From positions 1 through 50,510 of IMG/VR virus record IMGVR_UViG_3300036909_000085: a DNA stretch of 50,510 nucleotides; one strand, given 5' to 3'. Source of the DNA: a virus. A model generated the notes under the pieces. The model was not told the DNA's origin. It ran no database searches and saw nothing but the letters and a program-made list of their open reading frames with translations. How positions within the stretch are numbered: the stretch's first letter is position 1; every line of letters begins with the position of its first letter. A program made the position numbers and the translations under genes. Of this stretch, positions 1-5,514 are shown piece by piece.

Positions 1-31
1 ACTCTACCGGCTTACTTGTACTCCTACTCAT
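1..31 (-). CDS. 5' end of an unidentified gene, cut by the window edge
   Basis: Only the first ten codons are in the window (MSRSTSKPVE...). An AGGAG Shine-Dalgarno site lies 7 nt before the ATG at 29-31, and the gene follows the tRNA-like minihelix at 50-86. Nothing can be said about function; the Ser/Lys-rich start recalls the small basic proteins elsewhere in this genome. Confidence 0.5.
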   Translation of the reverse strand, partial: MSRSTSKPVE

Positions 32-49
32 GTAAATCTCCTAGAATGA

Positions 50-86
50 TGGTGGACCTAGAGGGGCTTGAGTCCTCGTTAGGTCG
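50..86 (-). ncRNA. tRNA-like minihelix (acceptor stem + T arm only) with encoded CCA
   Basis: On the minus strand a 7-nt strand CGACCTA pairs (6 of 7) with TAGGTCC followed by ACCA. Between them, after a 2-nt linker, is a 5+7+5 T-arm (GAGGA, loop CTCAAGC, CCCTC; 4 of 5 pairs). D and anticodon arms are absent. It starts one base from the CCA of tRNA-Ala at 87-162, so it would be released by the same processing. It may be a deletion remnant of a tRNA or a functional minihelix or decoy. No promoter of its own is seen. Confidence 0.5.
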
Positions 87-708
87 TGGTGGAGCCGGTA
101 AGAATCGAACTTACATCGCCGCCGTGCAAGGGCAGAAGGTTCCCGTTACCGAATACGGCCCCAAACTTTTTCTTCCTTCCTCCGCTATACCCACCATCTC
201 TGTAGAAGAAATGGTCGAGATCGTGACAATTCGGACATAGAATCTCTAAGTTTTCGAGATCGTTATTATGCCTATTTCGATCCCGATGATGAACTTTCAA
301 GATTCCCACATATTCGCAATAACCGCATCTGTTGCACCTATGAGGGTTGTTCCTGAATGCAATGTCCCTATAACTGTAGGCTCCATCACTCGTACCGTAC
401 TGGGGAGGATGAATCTCCGGATGGTTGCTTTCGATCCTCTGTGCGGTATCCTTACATTTCCGTGAACAAAACACCATCCCGCTTTTGGAGTTCTGATAAG
501 ATGACGGACGTTTATCGAAACCCTTTCCACATTGATCGCATATCTCTCGTACCCGTGTGCGGCTCCCAATTCTAGAACAAGGAATACTGCAATATTTCCC
601 TTCCCTGTGTATAGGAGCGTAGAAACTATCTCCGCATGTCTTACACTCCCGACGTGTTAGAGTCCTCATCTTACCATCGTAAGATGTTGATACGATTACA
701 TCTTCCAT
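79..708 (-). CDS. HNH endonuclease whose ORF runs through tRNA-Ala
   Basis: A 209-aa protein with two N-terminal zinc-binding modules (CKTC...YCSIPC near residues 22-44; CDQC...FCSRKC near 57-85) followed by an HNH core near residues 125-165: CNRCGYC, then HHRD and ILCPNCH. This is typical of free-standing phage HNH homing endonucleases, which nick DNA to spread their own gene. The reading frame does not stop before tRNA-Ala (87-162); the last ~27 residues are translated tRNA sequence. Start ATG 706-708 has AGGA 6 nt upstream, placed in the loop of a small hairpin (710-725). No catalytic residue looks missing. Function is confident from the motif; target site is unknown. Confidence 0.85.
   Translation of the reverse strand: MEDVIVSTSYDGKMRTLTRRECKTCGDSFYAPIHREGKYCSIPCSRIGSRTRVREICDQCGKGFDKRPSSYQNSKSGMVFCSRKCKDTAQRIESNHPEIHPPQYGTSDGAYSYRDIAFRNNPHRCNRCGYCEYVGILKVHHRDRNRHNNDLENLEILCPNCHDLDHFFYRDGGYSGGRKKKFGAVFGNGNLLPLHGGDVSSILTGSTTT
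87..162 (-). tRNA. tRNA-Ala(TGC)
   Basis: The 7-bp acceptor GGGGCCG/CGGCTCC carries the G3:U70 pair that alanyl-tRNA synthetase reads. The anticodon loop is CTTGCAC on a CTGCC/GGCGG stem, the T loop is TTCGATT, and A73-CCA is encoded. The D arm is irregular. The whole gene lies inside the last third of the HNH ORF at 79-708. Confidence 0.88.
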
Positions 709-709
709 T

Positions 710-725
710 CCCAGTCCTATCTGGG
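710..725 (-). promoter_or_regulatory. Hairpin holding the Shine-Dalgarno site of the HNH gene
   Basis: CCCAG-ATAGGA-CTGGG forms a 5-bp hairpin one base before the ATG, with AGGA in the loop. It could limit ribosome access, as RBS hairpins do for T4 homing endonucleases. A longer 7-bp inverted repeat (CCTGTAG/CTACAGG, about 760-783) lies further upstream. The rest of 726-839 shows no gene. Confidence 0.4.
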
Positions 726-839
726 TTTAGAAGCTCAAACGGATAAGAATCCACCACCTGTAGAACATCTACGCTACAGGACGTTTACCACGCCGAGTTT
801 AGCGTCCTCGACACTTACTACTTACATCTTAACACTTTC

Positions 840-918
840 TGGTGGAGCGTATCGGCATCGAACCGATCTGTCGTCTGCATTGCGAAAGCAGTGAGCACCC
901 CAAGCACTCCCACGCCCC
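840..918 (-). tRNA. tRNA-Ala(CGC)
   Basis: Acceptor GGGGCGT/ACGCTCC again has G3:U70. D stem GAGT/GCTC; anticodon loop TTCGCAA (U33, CGC); T arm ATCGG/CCGAT with loop TTCGATG; A73-CCA encoded. One of two alanine tRNAs at the end of the operon that starts at 2763. Confidence 0.88.
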
Positions 919-928
919 ACTATTAAAC

Positions 929-1156
929 CTACCAAACATCATACGCCACGTTGTGCAGTTCCTTGACAGGAAAATCTTTACCCATCGCAAGCGCTACCGT
1001 GGCAGCACGTCGATACTTCCTGTTCCTTATCCTTGCCCATTCCTTACGCCCAGGCCAAGAACCCCCGTAAGCGCCAGGATAACCACACTCGTTACGCCAC
1101 GGTTCGCGCTTCTCTTTCTGAATAGGATACGGCATCGTGTTCAATGTTCTGCTCAT
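929..1156 (-). CDS. Small basic protein of unknown function (75 aa)
   Basis: Not recognised. The protein is rich in Arg/Lys and aromatics, with an RKEWARIRNRKYRRA stretch near residues 37-51 that could bind nucleic acid. ATG at 1154-1156 has a G-rich GGGGG ribosome site 5 nt upstream. The gene fills the space between tRNA-His and tRNA-Ala(CGC) and ends 10 nt before the latter, so it is probably co-transcribed with the tRNAs. It could be a spurious frame, but the start signal and exact fit favour a gene. Confidence 0.5.
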   Translation of the reverse strand: MSRTLNTMPYPIQKEKREPWRNECGYPGAYGGSWPGRKEWARIRNRKYRRAATVALAMGKDFPVKELHNVAYDVW

Positions 1157-1171
1157 ATTACCCCCTAAAGT

Positions 1172-1246
1172 TGGGGTGAGGGGAGAGGGTCGAACTCTCT
1201 AAAGCAAGTTCCACAGACTTGCCCCGCGCCGTTTGGGTTCCCCCAC
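1172..1246 (-). tRNA. tRNA-His(GTG)
   Basis: Acceptor GTGGGGG/CCCTCAC, anticodon loop CTGTGGA on CAAGT/ACTTG, T arm GAGAG/CTCTC with TTCGACC, C73-CCA encoded. Histidyl synthetase normally needs G-1 opposite C73, but base -1 here is C. G-1 would have to be added or be dispensable. Confidence 0.87.
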
Positions 1247-1254
1247 GTAAACTA

Positions 1255-1330
1255 TGGAGCCGAATAACGGGCTTGAACCGTTCACCTTCCGATTACAGAT
1301 CGGATGCTCTACCACATAAGCTAATTCGGC
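1255..1330 (-). tRNA. tRNA-Thr(TGT), with C33
   Basis: Acceptor GCCGAAT/ATTCGGC has G1:C72 and C2:G71, the threonine identity pairs. D stem GCTT/GAGC with a normal GG, anticodon stem TCCGA/TCGGA, loop TCTGTAA (anticodon TGT but C at 33 where U is near-universal). T loop TTCAAGC; T73-CCA encoded. The HNH stop codon ends 2 nt upstream. Confidence 0.85.
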
Positions 1331-1331
1331 C

Positions 1332-1877
1332 TTAATCTCTTGTTACAAACCTCTGTTCACCTTCCGAGTCAGCGTACAAATACTTTCTCCATGCCGTTGT
1401 TTCGAGTGCAATGGATCGAAGTATGTTCCTACCCGTATGTACTGTAGCAGGTAATGGTCTGTGTATCAATGGCATACCTGCCTCTTCTGGTGTTCTATCG
1501 TCCTTACGCCGATTACATTCTTGACAACAAGAAACCATATTATCCCACGAATTTCTGCCTCCACGCGACTTAGGAATAATGTGATCCAACGTCAATTCGT
1601 TACCACTTAACTTCCTACCGCAGTATTGACAGGTATTACCATCGCGAAGGTAGATGTTCTTGCGTGTGACAACTTGAAGGCGAATAGGAATATGTTTGTA
1701 AACTCGTAGCCTAATTACCGAAGGTAAATAGATACCAGGATACACTTTAATGTTAGTGGGCAGTTCAACTGTTGCCTTACCCTTGGTAAGCAAGGTTAAA
1801 GCCCTCTTCCCACTAATGAGTCTGCACGGCTCATAGCTGGCATTGAGCAACAATGTTACGTGCCTACTTAGGTTCAT
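1332..1877 (-). CDS. HNH endonuclease (181 aa)
   Basis: The HNH/zinc-ribbon core covers residues ~80-140: CQYCGRKL, then LTLDHIIPKSRGG, then CCQECNRRKDDRTPEEAG. This is the large bacterial HNH subfamily that ends in a 'TPEEAGM' motif. The frame stays open upstream to 1994, but that extension reads through tRNA-Thr(CGT) and has no ribosome site. The ATG at 1875-1877 lies just after the stop (1882-1884) of a 57-codon ORF and has a TAGGA site. The stop codon ends 2 nt before the tRNA-Thr(TGT) 5' end. It probably acts as a free-standing homing endonuclease within the tRNA region. Confidence 0.85.
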   Translation of the reverse strand: MNLSRHVTLLLNASYEPCRLISGKRALTLLTKGKATVELPTNIKVYPGIYLPSVIRLRVYKHIPIRLQVVTRKNIYLRDGNTCQYCGRKLSGNELTLDHIIPKSRGGRNSWDNMVSCCQECNRRKDDRTPEEAGMPLIHRPLPATVHTGRNILRSIALETTAWRKYLYADSEGEQRFVTRD

Positions 1878-1881
1878 CGTC

Positions 1882-2055
1882 CTACTCGCTTTCGTTAGAA
1901 CTGGGGCTGGTATCCTGAGTCGAACAGGAATAGTCCGCTTTACGAGGGCGGTGCATAGCCTCTTCTGCCATACCAGCGTTTTTACGTCTTGCAACCACGA
2001 CCTTGAATACCCTACTCAAGTCGGCGGTGGCTAGGATCATTCTGTGTTCGTGCAT
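1882..2055 (-). CDS. 57-codon ORF reading through tRNA-Thr(CGT)
   Basis: Starts MHEHRMILATADLSRV at ATG 2053-2055 with a strong AGGAAGGA site 8 nt upstream. The last ~30 codons are the tRNA-Thr(CGT) gene read as protein; the TAG stop is 4 nt before the HNH ATG. This position could couple translation of the HNH gene to it. Function unknown; it may be no more than a translational lead-in. Confidence 0.4.
   Translation of the reverse strand: MHEHRMILATADLSRVFKVVVARRKNAGMAEEAMHRPRKADYSCSTQDTSPSSNESE
1902..1977 (-). tRNA. tRNA-Thr(CGT)
   Basis: Acceptor GCTGGTA/TACCAGC (perfect; G1:C72, C2:G71), anticodon loop CTCGTAA with normal U33, T arm TCCTG/CAGGA with TTCGACT, C73-CCA encoded. Embedded in the 57-codon ORF at 1882-2055. 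Confidence 0.87.
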
Positions 2056-2072
2056 CGTCGGCTTCCTTCCTG

Positions 2073-2213
2073 TTAATCGTTATGGCCGAAGTTTATTCGT
2101 ATCCTCCAGCGTTTTATGTCAATCACCCAATCCCCATTGTCGCACCTTCCACCCCAATCAAACCACCTACATAAGCAGGATGGCAACGCTACTCTATGCG
2201 CTTCAATTTGCAT
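2073..2213 (-). CDS. Small Trp/Arg-rich protein (46 aa)
   Basis: Starts MQIEAHRVALPSCLCRW at ATG 2211-2213 with GAGG 6-8 nt upstream, ends TAA, and fills the space after tRNA-Gly. It is Cys/Trp/Arg-rich (two CxC/RC clusters). No family recognised. It is followed 17 nt later by the 57-codon ORF. Confidence 0.4.
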   Translation of the reverse strand: MQIEAHRVALPSCLCRWFDWGGRCDNGDWVIDIKRWRIRINFGHND

Positions 2214-2227
2214 CTTACACCTCACTT

Positions 2228-2303
2228 TGGAGCGGGTAACCGGCAACGATCCGGTAACATCTAGAGTGGCACTCTAGCATTCTGCCAATTGAATTATACC
2301 CGC
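2228..2303 (-). tRNA. tRNA-Gly(GCC)
   Basis: Acceptor GCGGGTA/TACCCGC, anticodon loop GTGCCAC on CTAGA/TCTAG, T73-CCA encoded (U73 fits glycine). The T loop is ATCGTTG, with A54 and T58 where T54 and A58 are normal: the reverse-Hoogsteen pair seems swapped. Confidence 0.86.
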
Positions 2304-2311
2304 TTATCTCG

Positions 2312-2385
2312 TGGTTCGGTCGCTCCGGATCGAACGGAGATTAACGCCTTCAAAGGGCATTGTCCTGCCATTGAACGACAACCGA
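2312..2385 (-). tRNA. tRNA-Gln(TTG)
   Basis: Acceptor TCGGTTG/CGACCGA, D stem GTTC/GGAC, anticodon stem ATGCC/GGCGT with loop CTTTGAA, T loop TTCGATC, A73-CCA encoded. First of two Gln tRNAs side by side. Confidence 0.88.
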
Positions 2386-2395
2386 TCAAAATCTT

Positions 2396-2471
2396 TGGCA
2401 CCCCGGCGTGGATTTGAACCACGATACTCTGCTCCAGAGGCAGAAGTCCTAAGCCGTTGAACGACCGGGAT
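2396..2471 (-). tRNA. tRNA-Gln(CTG)
   Basis: Acceptor ATCCCGG/CCGGGGT, anticodon stem TCTGC/GCAGA with loop CTCTGGA, T arm CGTGG/CCACG with TTCAAAT, G73-CCA encoded (G73 fits glutamine). Confidence 0.87.
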
Positions 2472-2481
2472 ACTTAATTTT

Positions 2482-2558
2482 TGGCTCCACAGGAGGGACT
2501 GCAACCCCCATCTCGCTGGTTAACGGCCAGCCGCTCTAGCGTATTGAGCTACCGTGGA
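2482..2558 (-). tRNA. tRNA-Asn(GTT), with C33 and swapped C19-G56
   Basis: Acceptor TCCACGG/CTGTGGA, D stem GCTC/GAGC, anticodon stem GCTGG/CCAGC with loop CCGTTAA (C33), G73-CCA encoded. The D loop ends ..CGCTA (G18, C19) and the T loop is TTGCAGT (G56): the tertiary G19-C56 pair is inverted to C19-G56. First tRNA after the attenuator at 2574-2763. Confidence 0.86.
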
Positions 2559-2573
2559 ACATCCTAACAATCG

Positions 2574-2610
2574 AAAGGCCCTAAGACTTTGTTTCGTCTC
2601 AGGGCCTTTT
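2574..2610 (-). terminator. Attenuator terminator before the Asn-Gln-Gly-Thr-His-Ala tRNA operon
   Basis: On the minus strand AAGGCCCTGAGAC, an 8-nt loop and GTCTTAGGGCCTT form a long GC-rich stem, followed by a weak T tract (TTTCGATTG). It lies between the 28-codon leader ORF and tRNA-Asn. Its 5' arm CTGAGAC is exactly complementary to GTCTCAG in the last leader codons (2644-2650), giving a competing antiterminator helix. The plus strand would carry a better T run, so some bidirectional function is possible. Confidence 0.65.
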
Positions 2611-2640
2611 CAGTTTTACCATTTGTGTTAGGTAGAAATC

Positions 2641-2727
2641 CTACTGAGACCCCGTTTTTCTTGCACGATTACCCTGTGGCGTTGTTGCCGCTGTCGGGTT
2701 GGCGTGTTGGAATCGCGTGGTCATCAT
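2641..2727 (-). CDS. Leader peptide (28 aa) rich in Thr/Ala/Gln/Asn/Gly/His
   Basis: Starts ATG 2725-2727, about 8 nt after the -10 box, so probably leaderless; a second in-frame ATG follows. Codon content: Thr 6 (ACC, ACG x3, ACA x2), Ala 4 (GCC, GCG, GCA x2), Gln 3 (CAA, CAG x2), Asn 2 (AAC, AAT), Gly 2, His 1 = 18 of 28. The tRNAs downstream in the same transcript are Asn, Gln, Gln, Gly, Thr, Thr, His, Ala, Ala. The final codons (GGG TCT CAG) are complementary to the terminator 5' arm. I infer a ribosome-stalling leader of a transcription attenuator; the peptide itself need have no function. Confidence 0.7.
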   Translation of the reverse strand: MMTTRFQHANPTAATTPQGNRARKTGSQ

Positions 2728-2734
2728 GTTTTTC

Positions 2735-2763
2735 ATTATCCCAAATCTGTTCAGCGTTGTCAA
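2735..2763 (-). promoter_or_regulatory. Strong sigma70-like promoter for the second tRNA operon
   Basis: TTGACA (2758-2763), 17-bp spacer, GATAAT (2735-2740): the best consensus match in the window. Predicted start near 2728, at the leader ATG. It drives the leader, attenuator and tRNA-Asn onward. Confidence 0.8.
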
Positions 2764-2771
2764 GAACTATT

Positions 2772-2879
2772 TTACAAACTTTGCACCCACAACAAGAATA
2801 TCAGAATCGCCAGCCAGAACATTTTCGTAAAAACATTTATTATGATTCCTAGCGCGATCTCGGTTCTTGTTATAGGCAT
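2772..2879 (-). CDS. Possible single-span membrane peptide (35 aa)
   Basis: The ORF starts MPITRTEIALGIIINVF at ATG 2877-2879, 3 nt after the tRNA-Asp CCA. It has a hydrophobic C-terminal half (FWLAILIFLLWV) that could cross a membrane. The only AGGA upstream is inside the tRNA-Asp acceptor stem, so translation from an unprocessed transcript only is possible. It ends just before the 2763 promoter. Unrecognised and weakly supported. Confidence 0.3.
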   Translation of the reverse strand: MPITRTEIALGIIINVFTKMFWLAILIFLLWVQSL

Positions 2880-2882
2880 AAA

Positions 2883-2957
2883 TGGCGGTCCTACGCAGAG
2901 TCGAACTGCGACATCAAATTAGACAGATTTGCATCATAGCCGTTAGATCATAGGACC
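2883..2957 (-). tRNA. tRNA-Asp(GTC)
   Basis: Perfect acceptor GGTCCTA/TAGGACC, anticodon stem CAAAT/ATTTG with loop CTGTCTA, T loop TTCGACT, G73-CCA encoded (G73 is the aspartate identity base). It directly follows the structured RNA at 2958-3580, so it may be processed from its 3' end. Confidence 0.88.
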
Positions 2958-3580
2958 AAACTAATTACGGGTGGCATTGCGACATCCTCGCTGTATTGGG
3001 TAGTTTCTCTCTACCACGAACTAGGTATGCATCCCTTGCAAACTTGCGAGTGAAAAGTATCCACCGTCTAGCCACGACTCCATTTCTGGACGTAAACTCA
3101 AACTTGTTGCTGTGACTTTTTATATGAGTGCCACAGCGCCCATCTCATAGGACCAAAACTTGTGCTCCGTGCGGTATAAGCTATACGAACACCCGAAACC
3201 AGATTATTCGGGATGCTCAGCTTCTCCCGTTTGACCAGAGGTTATCTGGTGCACCTCTGCGAGAGCTTCCCATGCAAACGGAGCACATCTAAAACTGTGA
3301 CCGTCTTTCCGGTCTGTCAGCCCTACTCTCTGGACCAAGTTAGTGACCAAAATTCCGGTCGGATACAACCTCATTGCATAGGGTCAAGCAGGTTTCCACT
3401 TGACTTCCGAGAGTCTTCCGTATGCACTCATCTTTCGATGGCCACGATCCAGTCAACCTCTACTTTAACTCGGCGGTAGTTGTTGTCCCTGTGTGTCTAT
3501 CCACACCGCCTATGCAAACCATTCGGGGATGGACCACTCCCAACCCCGCTGCACCGATTCTTTATGGTCGGTGGTTAATC
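2958..3580 (-). ncRNA. Large ornate structured RNA (candidate ROOL/GOLLD-like) between tRNA-fMet and tRNA-Asp
   Basis: About 620 nt without a minus-strand ORF, exactly filling the space between two tRNAs. Complementary segments visible by eye: TTGCATAGG/CCTATGCAA (3509-3517 with 3374-3382, 9 bp); TGTGCTCCGT/ACGGAGCACA (3278-3287 with 3161-3170, 10 bp); CCGTTTG/CAAACGG; GGCGGT/ACCGCC; CAGAGGT/ACCTCTG; CCCGAA/TTCGGG. Two hairpins have GAAA tetraloops (3429-3440 and 3079-3090). An H-type pseudoknot is possible from TATGAG-GCTGTG-CTCATA-CACAGC (3149-3109). ROOL and GOLLD RNAs are known giant phage RNAs of this size class that sit beside tRNA genes; assignment to either is inference. The promoter at 3671-3699 would transcribe it with tRNA-fMet. 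Function unknown. Confidence 0.65.
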
Positions 3581-3658
3581 TGGAAGCGGGTGCTGGATTT
3601 GAACCAGCGGCCTGAACGTTATGGGCGTTCCGAGATAACCAGACTTCTCCAACCCGCA
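3581..3658 (-). tRNA. Initiator-like tRNA-Met(CAT), with C33
   Basis: Base 1 (T) and base 72 (T) do not pair, as in bacterial initiators; D stem GAGA/TCTC has the initiator A11:U24 pair; acceptor GCGGGT/ACCCGC; T arm GCTGG/CCAGC with TTCAAAT; T73-CCA encoded. Anticodon stem GAACG/CGTTC lacks the three initiator G-C pairs, and the loop is CCCATAA with C33. Formyl-Met initiator is most likely; an elongator or Ile-lysidine type is less so. It starts ~6 nt after its promoter's expected start point. Confidence 0.78.
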
Positions 3659-3670
3659 TCAACAATTCAA

Positions 3671-3699
3671 AGAGTACATCTGTCCTATCCGCTTGTCAA
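3671..3699 (-). promoter_or_regulatory. Promoter for tRNA-fMet, structured RNA and tRNA-Asp
   Basis: TTGACA (3694-3699), 17-bp spacer, TACTCT (3671-3676). The -35 is perfect and the -10 matches at three positions. The expected start (~3664) is a few bases from the tRNA-fMet 5' end, so this unit has no leader peptide or attenuator, unlike the other two tRNA units. Confidence 0.6.
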
Positions 3700-3720
3700 G
3701 AGTAATCTGCGCTTATTCTA

Positions 3721-3813
3721 TGGTGCGCGTGCCAGGACTCGAACCTAGGGTGTTTACCGCTATGGGTCGCAGCTTTACAGGCTGCTTCTGTCGCCACTGA
3801 GACACACACGCAC
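3721..3813 (-). tRNA. tRNA-Tyr(GTA)
   Basis: Acceptor GTGCGTG/CACGCGC, anticodon stem GCAGC/GCTGC with loop CTGTAAA, long variable arm (type II, as expected for bacterial Tyr), T loop TTCGAGT, A73-CCA encoded. Last tRNA of the operon starting at 5266. Confidence 0.88.
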
Positions 3814-3817
3814 ATCA

Positions 3818-3904
3818 TGGAGGATCGTAGCTGAGTTCAACAGCCTTCCCTTACGGGAGCCACCGGGTTCAGGCCGGTTTGCCTTAGCGAAAGCGGTACG
3901 ATCC
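3818..3904 (-). tRNA. tRNA-Ser(TGA), with C33 and swapped C19-G56
   Basis: Perfect acceptor GGATCGT/ACGATCC, anticodon stem ACCGG/CCGGT with loop CCTGAAC (C33), long variable arm with CCC/GGG stem, T73-CCA encoded. The D loop contains CGCTA (C19) and the T loop is TTGAACT (G56). T73 is unusual for serine (normally G73). Confidence 0.83.
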
Positions 3905-3909
3905 AAACT

Positions 3910-3996
3910 TGGCGGTATCGGCGTGATTCCAACACGCAAAGGCTTTCACCTTGTTCCTTTTCGAGAGGAGTGGGCCTAGCAATGCCCAACGATACC
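3910..3996 (-). tRNA. tRNA-Ser(CGA), with swapped C19-G56
   Basis: Perfect acceptor GGTATCG/CGATACC, anticodon loop CTCGAAA, long variable arm, T arm GCGTG/CACGC with loop TTGGAAT (G56), D loop ATTGCTA (G18, C19), G73-CCA encoded. Confidence 0.87.
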
Positions 3997-4001
3997 AACA
4001 C

Positions 4002-4089
4002 TGGCGGGAAGCAGGAGAACCCGAGTCCCATTCCTTACGGAACCACACGATTTCCAGTCGTGGCCTATCACCTGATAGGTTTACTTCCC
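4002..4089 (-). tRNA. tRNA-Ser(GGA)
   Basis: Acceptor GGGAAGT/GCTTCCC, anticodon stem CACGA/TCGTG with loop CTGGAAA, long variable arm, G73-CCA encoded. The T arm is irregular (loop probably CTCGGGT, weak stem), resembling the minihelix T loop at 50-86. Confidence 0.82.
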
Positions 4090-4096
4090 AAAACTA

Positions 4097-4188
4097 TGGC
4101 GGGGTAGACAGGTCTCGATCCTGCACGTCTCTTTTCAGAGGACAACGGTTTAGCAAACCGCCCGAATTGCCAATTCTCGCACTACCCC
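4097..4188 (-). tRNA. tRNA-Ser(GCT)
   Basis: Perfect acceptor GGGGTAG/CTACCCC, anticodon stem GCGGT/ACCGT with loop TTGCTAA, long variable arm, T arm GCAGG/CCTGT with ATCGAGA (A54), G73-CCA encoded. Reads AGC/AGU. Confidence 0.87.
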
Positions 4189-4195
4189 GTAAATC

Positions 4196-4285
4196 TGGTG
4201 CTGACGAGGGGCATCGAACCCCTATGCTACTTAATTTCGCACGGCTTTTTGAGAACCGCGTGTATACCAATTCCACCACGTCAGC
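4196..4285 (-). tRNA. tRNA-Leu(CAA)
   Basis: Perfect acceptor GCTGACG/CGTCAGC, typical leucine D arm (TGGTGGAATTGGTA), anticodon loop CTCAAAA on CGGTT/AGCCG, long variable arm, T loop TTCGATG, A73-CCA encoded. Confidence 0.9.
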
Positions 4286-4292
4286 AAAACTA

Positions 4293-4376
4293 TGGTGCCC
4301 GAAGGGGGACTTGAACCCCCAAACCTTTCGGCGAACGCTCCTAAGGCGTTTGTGTTTTCGATTTCACCATTCGGGC
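4293..4376 (-). tRNA. tRNA-Leu(TAG)
   Basis: Perfect acceptor GCCCGAA/TTCGGGC, anticodon stem AACGC/GCGTT with loop CTTAGGA, long variable arm, T arm GGGGG/CCCCC with TTCAAGT, A73-CCA encoded. The D loop has CGAAAA where TTGGTA is usual (G19 changed to A). Confidence 0.88.
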
Positions 4377-4387
4377 ACATCTAAACT

Positions 4388-4464
4388 TGGACAGTCGGGT
4401 GGGATTTCAACCCACGATTAGCAAGGTTGCAGCTTGCCGCGTTTGAGCACTTCGCCACCGACTG
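4388..4464 (-). tRNA. tRNA-Cys(GCA), with swapped C19-G56
   Basis: Perfect acceptor CAGTCGG/CCGACTG, anticodon stem GCAAG/CTTGC with loop CTGCAAC, T arm GTGGG/CCCAC with TTGAAAT (G56), D loop with GTGCT (G18, C19), T73-CCA encoded (U73 is the cysteine identity base). Its 5' 47 nt lie inside the HNH ORF at 4418-4996. Confidence 0.87.
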
Positions 4465-4996
4465 ATGGTAGGGGATGAGACAGTTTTTTCGACCTTCCAA
4501 AACCATCCCATTTCCCAAATAAACCTTTTTCTTTTGCTTCCTTTACTGCGCTCGATATATGCATCCACGCTTCGTATGGCATGTCGCGGCGCATATAATT
4601 GCATCGAGAACAGCATGGTACTACATTACTTTTCATGTGTCCCTTTAAGTTGTCAATCCTATCAAGAGAAACACGCAATTGATTTTCTCCGCAATATGTA
4701 CATGAACTTGCAATAGCACTCTTCACAAAATCCACATCGAGATCATTACTAAAACCTCGTTTCTTGTCGGATTTGTTAATATCTCTAAGTAAAACTACGG
4801 CGAGATTAGCTGGTTTTGTGCGATAGCGTTGATTACGTTCACGCTGTTTTTCCGGGTTCTTAGTGTGCGCTTTCACAATTCTCCGGTTATCACATATTGA
4901 ACAGTCGTATTTTCTATATACGGCTCTTGGTGTGCGTTTCCTAATAGGAAATTGCTCAATATCTTTTTCTTCCCCACACGTTTTACACGTTCTCAT
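4418..4996 (-). CDS. HNH endonuclease with N-terminal zinc module; ORF ends inside tRNA-Cys
   Basis: A 192-aa protein. Residues 4-35 form a C-x2-C...C-x2-C zinc module (CKTC...CSIC). The HNH core near 98-140 has CTYCGENQ, SLDRIDN and CCSRCNYMRR. It belongs to the phage HNH group with the 'SLDRIDN' signature. The last ~15 codons are tRNA-Cys sequence; the stop lies 47 nt into that tRNA. The start ATG 4994-4996 has GAGG 10 nt upstream, next to the tRNA-Leu(TAA) 3' end. Co-transcribed with the first tRNA operon. It is likely a homing endonuclease that spreads this tRNA interval. Confidence 0.85.
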   Translation of the reverse strand: MRTCKTCGEEKDIEQFPIRKRTPRAVYRKYDCSICDNRRIVKAHTKNPEKQRERNQRYRTKPANLAVVLLRDINKSDKKRGFSNDLDVDFVKSAIASSCTYCGENQLRVSLDRIDNLKGHMKSNVVPCCSRCNYMRRDMPYEAWMHISSAVKEAKEKGLFGKWDGFGRSKKLSHPLPSVGGEVLKRGKLQPC

Positions 4997-5017
4997 CTGC
5001 GTATTTCCTCATTAGTT

Positions 5018-5095
5018 TGGTGGGGGTGAACGGTGTCGAACCGATCCTGAACCGGGTTTAGGCCGATTTCCTCTGCCAACGTGGGATACACCCCC
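5018..5095 (-). tRNA. tRNA with anticodon TAA (Leu by code), C33, short variable loop
   Basis: Perfect acceptor GGGGGTG/CACCCCC, anticodon stem ATCGG/CCGGT with loop CCTAAAC (C33), T arm with TTCGACA, A73-CCA encoded. A leucine tRNA should have a long variable arm, but only five bases (TCAGG) separate the anticodon and T stems, so the charged amino acid is uncertain. First tRNA of the first operon; its 5' end touches the T tract of the attenuator terminator. Confidence 0.75.
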
Positions 5096-5129
5096 AAAAC
5101 AAAACCCTCAGATTTGTGGTCTGAGGGCG
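5096..5129 (-). terminator. Attenuator terminator before the Leu-Cys-Ser-Tyr tRNA operon
   Basis: On the minus strand CCCTCAGA, a 7-nt loop, TCTGAGGG, then TTTTGTTTT: a strong intrinsic terminator. It lies immediately upstream of a tRNA and downstream of a 24-codon leader ORF. The arm CGCCCTC (5123-5129) can instead pair with GAG(A)GGCG in the last leader codons (5161-5168), 7 bp with one bulge, giving an antiterminator. Confidence 0.8.
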
Positions 5130-5153
5130 GTTGAACCTGATTTAAACTTTGGC

Positions 5154-5228
5154 TCACACACGCCTCTCCACGCACAGCAAATAGCTGAGTGAGGATAAAG
5201 AGCGCGAACTGAGAACGAAGTTTTCCAT
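5154..5228 (-). CDS. Leader peptide (24 aa) using all six serine codons, plus Leu/Tyr/Cys
   Basis: ATG 5226-5228, TGA 5154-5156. Serine codons AGT, TCG, TCT, TCC, TCA and AGC occur once each; leucine uses CTC x2, TTA, TTG, CTG; then TAT (Tyr) and TGC (Cys): 13 of 24 residues. The tRNAs downstream are Leu(TAA), Cys, Leu(TAG), Leu(CAA), Ser(GCT), Ser(GGA), Ser(CGA), Ser(TGA) and Tyr. The codons GTG GAG AGG CGT near the end overlap the antiterminator arm. With the promoter start near 5231 it would be almost leaderless. I infer an attenuator leader that stalls ribosomes when these charged tRNAs are scarce. Confidence 0.72.
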   Translation of the reverse strand: MENFVLSSRSLSSLSYLLCVERRV

Positions 5229-5237
5229 AGCAAGATC

Positions 5238-5266
5238 AGTCTTTCACGGATTTAATAGGTTGTCAA
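5238..5266 (-). promoter_or_regulatory. Promoter for the first tRNA operon
   Basis: TTGACA (5261-5266), 17-bp spacer, AAGACT (5238-5243; three matches). Perfect -35, weak -10, with the leader ATG ~10 nt after the -10. The bases upstream (ACTAAATAAATA) are AT-rich, as in UP elements. Confidence 0.55.
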
Positions 5267-5274
5267 GTATTTAT

Positions 5275-5514
5275 TTAGTGTTCCCACACTTTCTGCGTCC
5301 ACTTCGGTCGATTCTCCACTGTGCGCTGTGGGGCAGTGTGCGGCGTACTCCCTACAGGATACGGCTTGGCATACGACGTTACTGCATGGGCGTTGTGAGC
5401 GTCAAAGCGTTGTCCTTTGGCATGTGTGCATACTTGGTTCTCCTTAGCTCCACATACGGGGCACCAAAGGGATAGACGACTCGTGCAATAGTGCGTTTGA
5501 ATTTCAATTTCCAC
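5275..5514 (-). CDS. Zinc-knuckle small protein (79 aa)
   Basis: I place the start at GTG 5512-5514: AGGAGG lies 6 nt upstream and the frame before it overlaps the previous gene. The N-terminal half has C-x-VCGAKENQVC-x-H followed by KGQRFDAHNAHA, the pattern of small phage zinc-finger proteins (CPxCGA...C...H..H). The rest is basic and Pro-rich. It overlaps the 5504-5701 gene by 11 nt, so translation is probably coupled. Last gene of the 8134-5275 operon. Function unknown; nucleic-acid binding is likely. Confidence 0.65.
   Translation of the reverse strand: MEIEIQTHYCTSRLSLWCPVCGAKENQVCTHAKGQRFDAHNAHAVTSYAKPYPVGSTPHTAPQRTVENRPKWTQKVWEH

Follow-up and report, generated by a model that had tools for sequence, protein, structure and literature searches.

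Candidate multi-amino-acid transcription attenuators upstream of phage tRNA operons

In the trp, his, leu and thr attenuators, a leader open reading frame (ORF) with codons for the sensed amino acid and a stop codon near arm 2 is followed by competing antiterminator and terminator structures located before the first gene of the operon. The ilvGMEDA and ilvB leaders each contain codons for several amino acids (two or three) and act as OR gates. T-box riboswitches also tie gene expression to tRNA status, binding tRNA directly and without translation. To our knowledge, tRNA genes have not been described before as targets of ribosome-mediated attenuation.

The reasons for which phages carry tRNAs, and the timing of their synthesis, have long been in question. 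Phage tRNAs that evade tRNA-targeting defences have been reported to replace tRNAs lost to host nucleases (PMC10264068, PMC11555353). These studies deal with the sequence and presence of the tRNAs, and attenuation, leaders and promoter control are unmentioned in the former. Attenuation and leader peptides for tRNA genes are also absent from other work on phage tRNAs (PMC13015707, PMC12482277) and from papers on the phages considered here or similar ones (PMC3556154, PMC5648845, PMC11924767, PMC11242549). The initial annotation of the locus knew of no described phage tRNA operon run this way, and no description of leader-peptide attenuation of such operons was found in the open-access literature, which is not proof of absence.

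Here we describe short leaders upstream of phage tRNA units, each of which, judging from sequence, very probably functions as a ribosome-mediated transcription attenuator of the trp/his type, coupling each operon to the availability of its own tRNAs. The proposed mechanism is of a known kind; its target and the degree of multiplexing are new. Unlike the trp, his, leu and thr attenuators, the phage leaders precede tRNA genes rather than biosynthetic genes, so that the feedback would act on the decoding tRNA itself; each would sense up to nine amino acids, and the mRNA is probably leaderless. Compared with ilvGMEDA and ilvB, they contain codons for four to nine amino acids, with a codon diversity above random. 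The leaders of the window, unlike T-boxes, have no match in Rfam.

The window, that is, the whole stretch of DNA analysed, is the 50,510 nt contig IMGVR_UViG_3300036909_000085, which carries tRNA unit A on the minus strand (Table 1). The elements originally proposed for this unit, namely TTGACA, a 24-codon leader ORF, a terminator with a T run and tRNA-Leu(TAA), were all located on that strand in this order, and the reported downstream set of three Leu, one Cys, four Ser and one Tyr tRNAs was confirmed, with Ser(GGA) assigned by eye. The codon count agrees as well: leader A contains one each of the Ser codons AGT, TCG, TCT, TCC, TCA and AGC, five Leu codons (CTC twice, TTA, TTG and CTG), one Tyr codon (TAT) and one Cys codon (TGC). 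These four amino acids account for 13 of the 23 residues (P = 1e-4 against the phage proteome), and the chance that all six Ser codons differ is 0.014 under the phage's own usage. The use of every Ser codon exactly once holds for the window copy but not for the relatives, which keep the amino-acid set and a codon diversity above random.

Table 1. Features of tRNA units A, B and C in the window
Feature	Position	Strand	Remarks
Unit A -35, TTGACA	5261-5266	(-)	Predicted promoter; putative weak -10 AAGACT at 5238-5243
Leader ORF A, MENFVLSSRSLSSLSYLLCVERRV and stop	5154-5228	(-)	ATG 5228, stop 5154; 24 codons; Leu/Ser/Tyr/Cys
Antiterminator arm 2 of unit A (predicted), GGAGAGGCGTGTG	5157-5169	(-)	End of leader A
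Intrinsic terminator A and T run	5096-5128 (terminator 5104-5128)	(-)	5' arm predicted to pair with arm 2
tRNA-Leu(TAA)	5018-5095	(-)	First gene after terminator A
tRNA unit A	3721-5095	(-)	Leu(TAA), Cys, Leu(TAG), Leu(CAA), Ser(GCT), Ser(GGA), Ser(CGA), Ser(TGA), Tyr
Unit B promoter (predicted)	3671-3699	(-)	TTGACA 3694-3699, TACTCT 3671-3676; directly 5' of tRNA-Met; leader absent
Unit B	2883-3658	(-)	tRNA-Met (initiator-like in relatives) and tRNA-Asp
Unit C promoter (predicted)	2735-2763	(-)	TTGACA-17-GATAAT, 11/12 match; better than that of unit A
Leader ORF C, MMTTRFQHANPTAATTPQGNRARKTGSQ and stop	2641-2727	(-)	Thr/Ala/Gln/Asn/Pro/Gly/His/Phe/Arg
Antiterminator arm 2 of unit C (predicted), GTCTCAG	2644-2650	(-)	Last codons of leader C
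Intrinsic terminator C	2575-2608	(-)	CTGAGAC (2596-2602) in 5' arm, complementary to GTCTCAG
Unit C tRNAs in the window	87-2558	(-)	Asn, Gln, Gln, Gly, Thr, Thr, His, Ala, Ala

The promoter proposed for unit A stands in part: TTGACA, or a variant with one change, is present in all 13 unit A leaders of the set described below, 29-33 nt 5' of the leader start in 12 of them, whereas the -10 of the window matches at only 3/6 positions. The spacing between the -35 and the start codon is 29-34 nt in 30/36 leaders, which places the start codon on or beside the predicted transcription start, so that a leaderless mRNA is the probable template for leader translation. When both helices were folded, as had been suggested, terminator A gave a computed dG of -13.8 kcal/mol, and the helix formed by the end of leader A, GGAGAGGCGTG, with AACCGCCCTC gave -12.7 kcal/mol. 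A ribosome at the stop codon of leader A would cover arm 2; a stall at the nearby Tyr or Cys codon (codons 16 and 19 of 24) would also mask part of it. This pairing is genome-specific among the relatives, but in the window alone it is no better than in dinucleotide shuffles, 37/100 of which were equally good, so the case rests on the relatives.

A single attenuator had been annotated; its anatomy is confirmed at unit A, but the window has two such candidates, the second preceding unit C, and full-length relatives have three. The tRNA order in relatives suggests that the Phe, Pro and Arg tRNAs of unit C lie past the contig end. Unit B begins with a tRNA-Met that, by our reading, has the initiator-type C1-A72 mismatch in 9/12 cases, a mismatch absent from the Met tRNA of unit D. 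The location of this tRNA outside leader control would make sense, since the translation of any leader would require the initiator tRNA.

A search with the major head protein identified a family of soil phage contigs, one of them in an Acidobacteriaceae bin. In relatives with large tRNA arrays, the tRNA order is mostly kept, in four units: A (Leu, Cys, Ser, Tyr), B (Met, Asp, Glu), C (Asn, Gln, Gly, Thr, His, Ala, Phe, Pro, Arg) and D (Trp, Met, Ile, Lys, Arg, Val, Thr, Ile, Gly), of which A, C and D have a leader and a terminator and B lacks a leader. The nearest contig carries both leaders of the window with different sequences and similar kinds of amino acids; the indels in its leader A are of 3 nt, and the terminators show compensating changes. 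The leader layout was found in 14 genomes, which provided a set of 36 leaders (13 A, 12 C and 11 D). One genome, G020 (L101), was omitted because its unit D leader is doubtful, and G040 and G054 were not counted, being repeats of G007 and G052. The start codons of some leaders, at first automatic, were shifted by eye. The automatic finder misplaced some terminators, and for 11 of them the site used in the final swap test was chosen manually. Because the relatives have a common ancestry, tests within the family are not fully independent. Searches of phage records with the leader-region DNA, or by tblastn with the unit D leader, yielded no matches. A further locus, L118, was rejected as a chance pattern match and not an attenuator.

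The amino acids of a leader's own tRNA unit show the top enrichment in 36/36 leaders. The mean own-set fraction is 0.59 in unit A leaders (background 0.20), 0.87 in unit C leaders (background 0.53) and 0.78 in unit D leaders (background 0.42); all four unit amino acids are present in 12/13 A leaders, and all nine in 11/12 C leaders. Synonymous codon diversity exceeds the sampling expectation in units A, C and D (P 0.005, 0.0005 and 0.002, respectively). When ten representative leaders, including those of unrelated phages described below, were compared with ten tRNA sets, none of 200,000 permutations surpassed the true pairing, which was matched only where equal sets tied. Jointly, the leaders of the window's family cover all amino acids except for Asp and Glu, which are scarce (24/831) in leaders of units without Asp and Glu tRNAs and more frequent in leaders of units that include them, 8/48 in unit D of phage Tunturi 5 and 4/33 in phage Lacusarx (Fisher P 2e-5). 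Cognate residues peak in the middle of the leader; their share drops to 10% over the final four codons of A leaders, the site of arm 2. As in known cases of ribosome-mediated attenuation, a short ORF located 3' of a predicted promoter is enriched in codons of the downstream unit, and the lack of such a bias in homologous tRNA operons, which had been named as a refutation, was not observed in any of the three units or in the unrelated phages.

An intrinsic terminator is located between the leader and the first tRNA gene, except for one Lacusarx unit without a T run, and the pairing, swap and shuffle analyses indicate a mutually exclusive antiterminator that shares the 5' arm of the terminator. 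The leader end pairs better with the terminator 5' arm of its own genome than with those of swapped genomes (P 0.0002 for A, 0.001 for C and 0.016 for D). In a folding model in which RNA is masked by a ribosome either stalled mid-leader or located at the stop codon, the terminator 5' arm, before the 3' arm was made, was paired upstream (at least 6 nt) in 32/36 leaders with the stall as opposed to 7/36 with the ribosome at the stop; across the group, this switch signal was 0.81 compared with 0.655 +/- 0.035 for dinucleotide shuffles. In most leaders of the window's family, the placement of arm 2 is such that a ribosome on the stop codon would mask it and one stalled further 5' would leave it free. 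The terminator is present in 35/36 minimum-energy folds without ribosomes, and it is wholly lost in only 11/36 folds of the full-length RNA with a mid-leader stall. As equilibrium mostly favours the terminator even under stalling, switching would have to be kinetic, given that the antiterminator can form first.

The same layout is found in phages outside this family. Tunturi 5, a cultivated jumbo myophage of Acidobacteriota, has 43 tRNAs in a similar order (PMC11924767). It carries three leaders (MKTLCLSSYCLSSSLSLSDGWDLRTGRDADMI, MQHVSTFRFAVPATAGNPAGQQGTNACDTGGGKVVKW and MKQILKQLGHDFDIRGKRGVVVDTWDITIRGERKWSDVRDMRVLRERPV); its unit D includes Asp and Glu tRNAs, and the respective leader contains Asp and Glu codons. 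The Tunturi 5 leaders (L134, PP885688.1 229500-257000) lack an obvious TTGACA, unlike those of the remaining phages, which suggests a different promoter type. Its tRNA nucleotidyltransferase has no relatives in IMG/VR. Among other tRNA-rich phages, a generic scan picked out Caulobacter phage CcrColossus and its relatives, Caulobacter and Brevundimonas phages that include the laboratory phage phiCbK. In this group, the leader MSKTYRQFVRQIQVVRNIRAGRSRMADEGFRD, with 14-15 consecutive cognate residues, precedes Tyr/Phe/Val/Ile/Gln/Arg tRNAs, and MFALSHNSLSTKAASPASLSLAPLATATKPSTKPTTSASHSTDHL, listed in the annotation as hypothetical protein phiCbK_235, precedes Pro/Thr/Lys/Leu/His/Ala/Ser tRNAs and is cognate at 41/44 residues. 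No matching leader seems to precede the CcrColossus Trp/Gly/Gly/Glu/Asp unit (L142:1741-2724); here, too, Asp and Glu tRNAs appear to be outside leader control. In Sphingobium phage Lacusarx, the leader MFTQTTLLTQCHYWQLLSSSSL is located 5' of Ser/Leu/Thr/His/Gln/Cys/Trp tRNAs, and a second one with FGKRDRREGERGF is located 5' of Lys/Gly/Asp/Glu/Arg/Phe tRNAs. The geometry of the attenuators varies: one leader of the phiCbK group has arm 2 about 24-45 nt 5' of its stop and the other seemingly 3' of its stop, and the hairpin behind the Lacusarx Ser/Leu leader lacks a T run, both of which differ from the simple model. No convincing leader was found by the scan in T5, KVP40 and Myrna. In Phosso, a leader-like ORF is accompanied by a terminator able to pair, but its composition match is weak (P 0.1), and an attenuator is only possible there.

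The attenuation first suggested for unit A is therefore supported by the match between composition and tRNAs in three units and in unrelated phages, and by the genome-specific pairing. In the proposed mechanism, transcription would start at or beside the leader start codon. When all cognate charged tRNAs are ample, the lead ribosome would reach the stop and mask arm 2, and the terminator would form before the first tRNA. Scarcity of any single cognate tRNA would stall the ribosome within the cognate stretch and leave arm 2 free, making the leader an OR gate; arm 2 would then pair with the terminator 5' arm, and RNA polymerase would read through into the replacement tRNAs. An RNA that is not translated would terminate by default. 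Unit B, with an initiator-type tRNA-Met that any leader would need, would be transcribed from a plain, leader-free promoter. We infer that the shortage could be caused by tRNA-cleaving defences, by lost synthesis of host tRNAs or by heavy demand of the phage itself.

Attenuation cannot distinguish a missing tRNA from missing charging, and classical attenuators read amino-acid supply; the phage leaders could accordingly sense amino-acid starvation through uncharged tRNA and boost tRNA in starved hosts. This reading appears unlikely: the controlled genes are tRNAs, which are no cure for starvation, and the leaders span up to 18 of the 20 amino acids and sample many of the synonymous codons, as though isoacceptors were being probed. 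T-boxes respond to uncharged tRNA upstream of related genes, but a riboswitch of this or another tRNA-binding kind is extremely improbable here. The ORF nearly fills leaders of about 130 nt, and an Rfam search of window positions 2400-5400 with E up to 1 found no riboswitch or leader family, only tRNAs and two sub-threshold chance matches; T-boxes and known Rfam leaders were accordingly rejected.

A role of the leader products as sequence-specific arrest peptides, or as small proteins with a function of their own, is also very unlikely. The leaders do appear to be translated, and hypothetical-protein annotations exist for some of them, such as phiCbK_235, but their composition is conserved while order and sequence are not, and this composition tracks the tRNA content of the unit, Asp and Glu included. 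Insulating terminators next to tRNA operons are plausible, and the result for the window A antiterminator taken alone would fit terminators that only shield the operons from upstream transcription, with the short ORFs arising by chance. We consider this highly improbable, as the promoter is located 5' of both ORF and terminator, so that each terminator would block the operon it belongs to; moreover, the composition matches the downstream tRNAs in all 36 leaders and in unrelated phages, and leader indels come in multiples of three.

A broader reading, which is somewhat more likely than not, is a general tRNA-shortage sensor carried by several unrelated groups of tRNA-rich phages, in which two or three OR-gated leaders would test up to 18 amino acids and activate the matching block of replacement tRNAs upon any depletion, for example, by tRNA-cleaving host defences. 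If true, such a built-in sensor would reveal the purpose of phage tRNAs and make it testable in phiCbK and Tunturi 5, and a leader would serve as a natural reporter for tRNA-targeting immunity. Leader codons also allow prediction of the tRNAs that an operon encodes.

Several further features of the arrays were observed. An HNH/endonuclease VII-like gene (phrog_1035; 4418-4996, minus strand) is inserted between the Leu(TAA) and Cys tRNAs of unit A and is missing from the corresponding place in the nearest contig, and a second HNH gene is located within the tRNA array of the window (1332-1994), as if homing endonucleases targeted tRNA arrays. Divergent phage tRNAs, such as Ser(CGA), Ser(TGA) and His, escape the default settings of ARAGORN and are found with a lower threshold; they were seen in the window (1-4100, minus strand), in L010 and in other array loci. 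Finally, the stretch between tRNA-Met and tRNA-Asp of unit B is non-coding and, in its window part, has no Rfam match. The window (2960-3580, minus strand) and L010 (1240-2080, minus strand) share blocks in this stretch, for example, GACCGGAAAGACGGTCACAGTTTT and GCACGGAGCAC, and it possibly represents a novel structured RNA or unusual tRNA-like genes.
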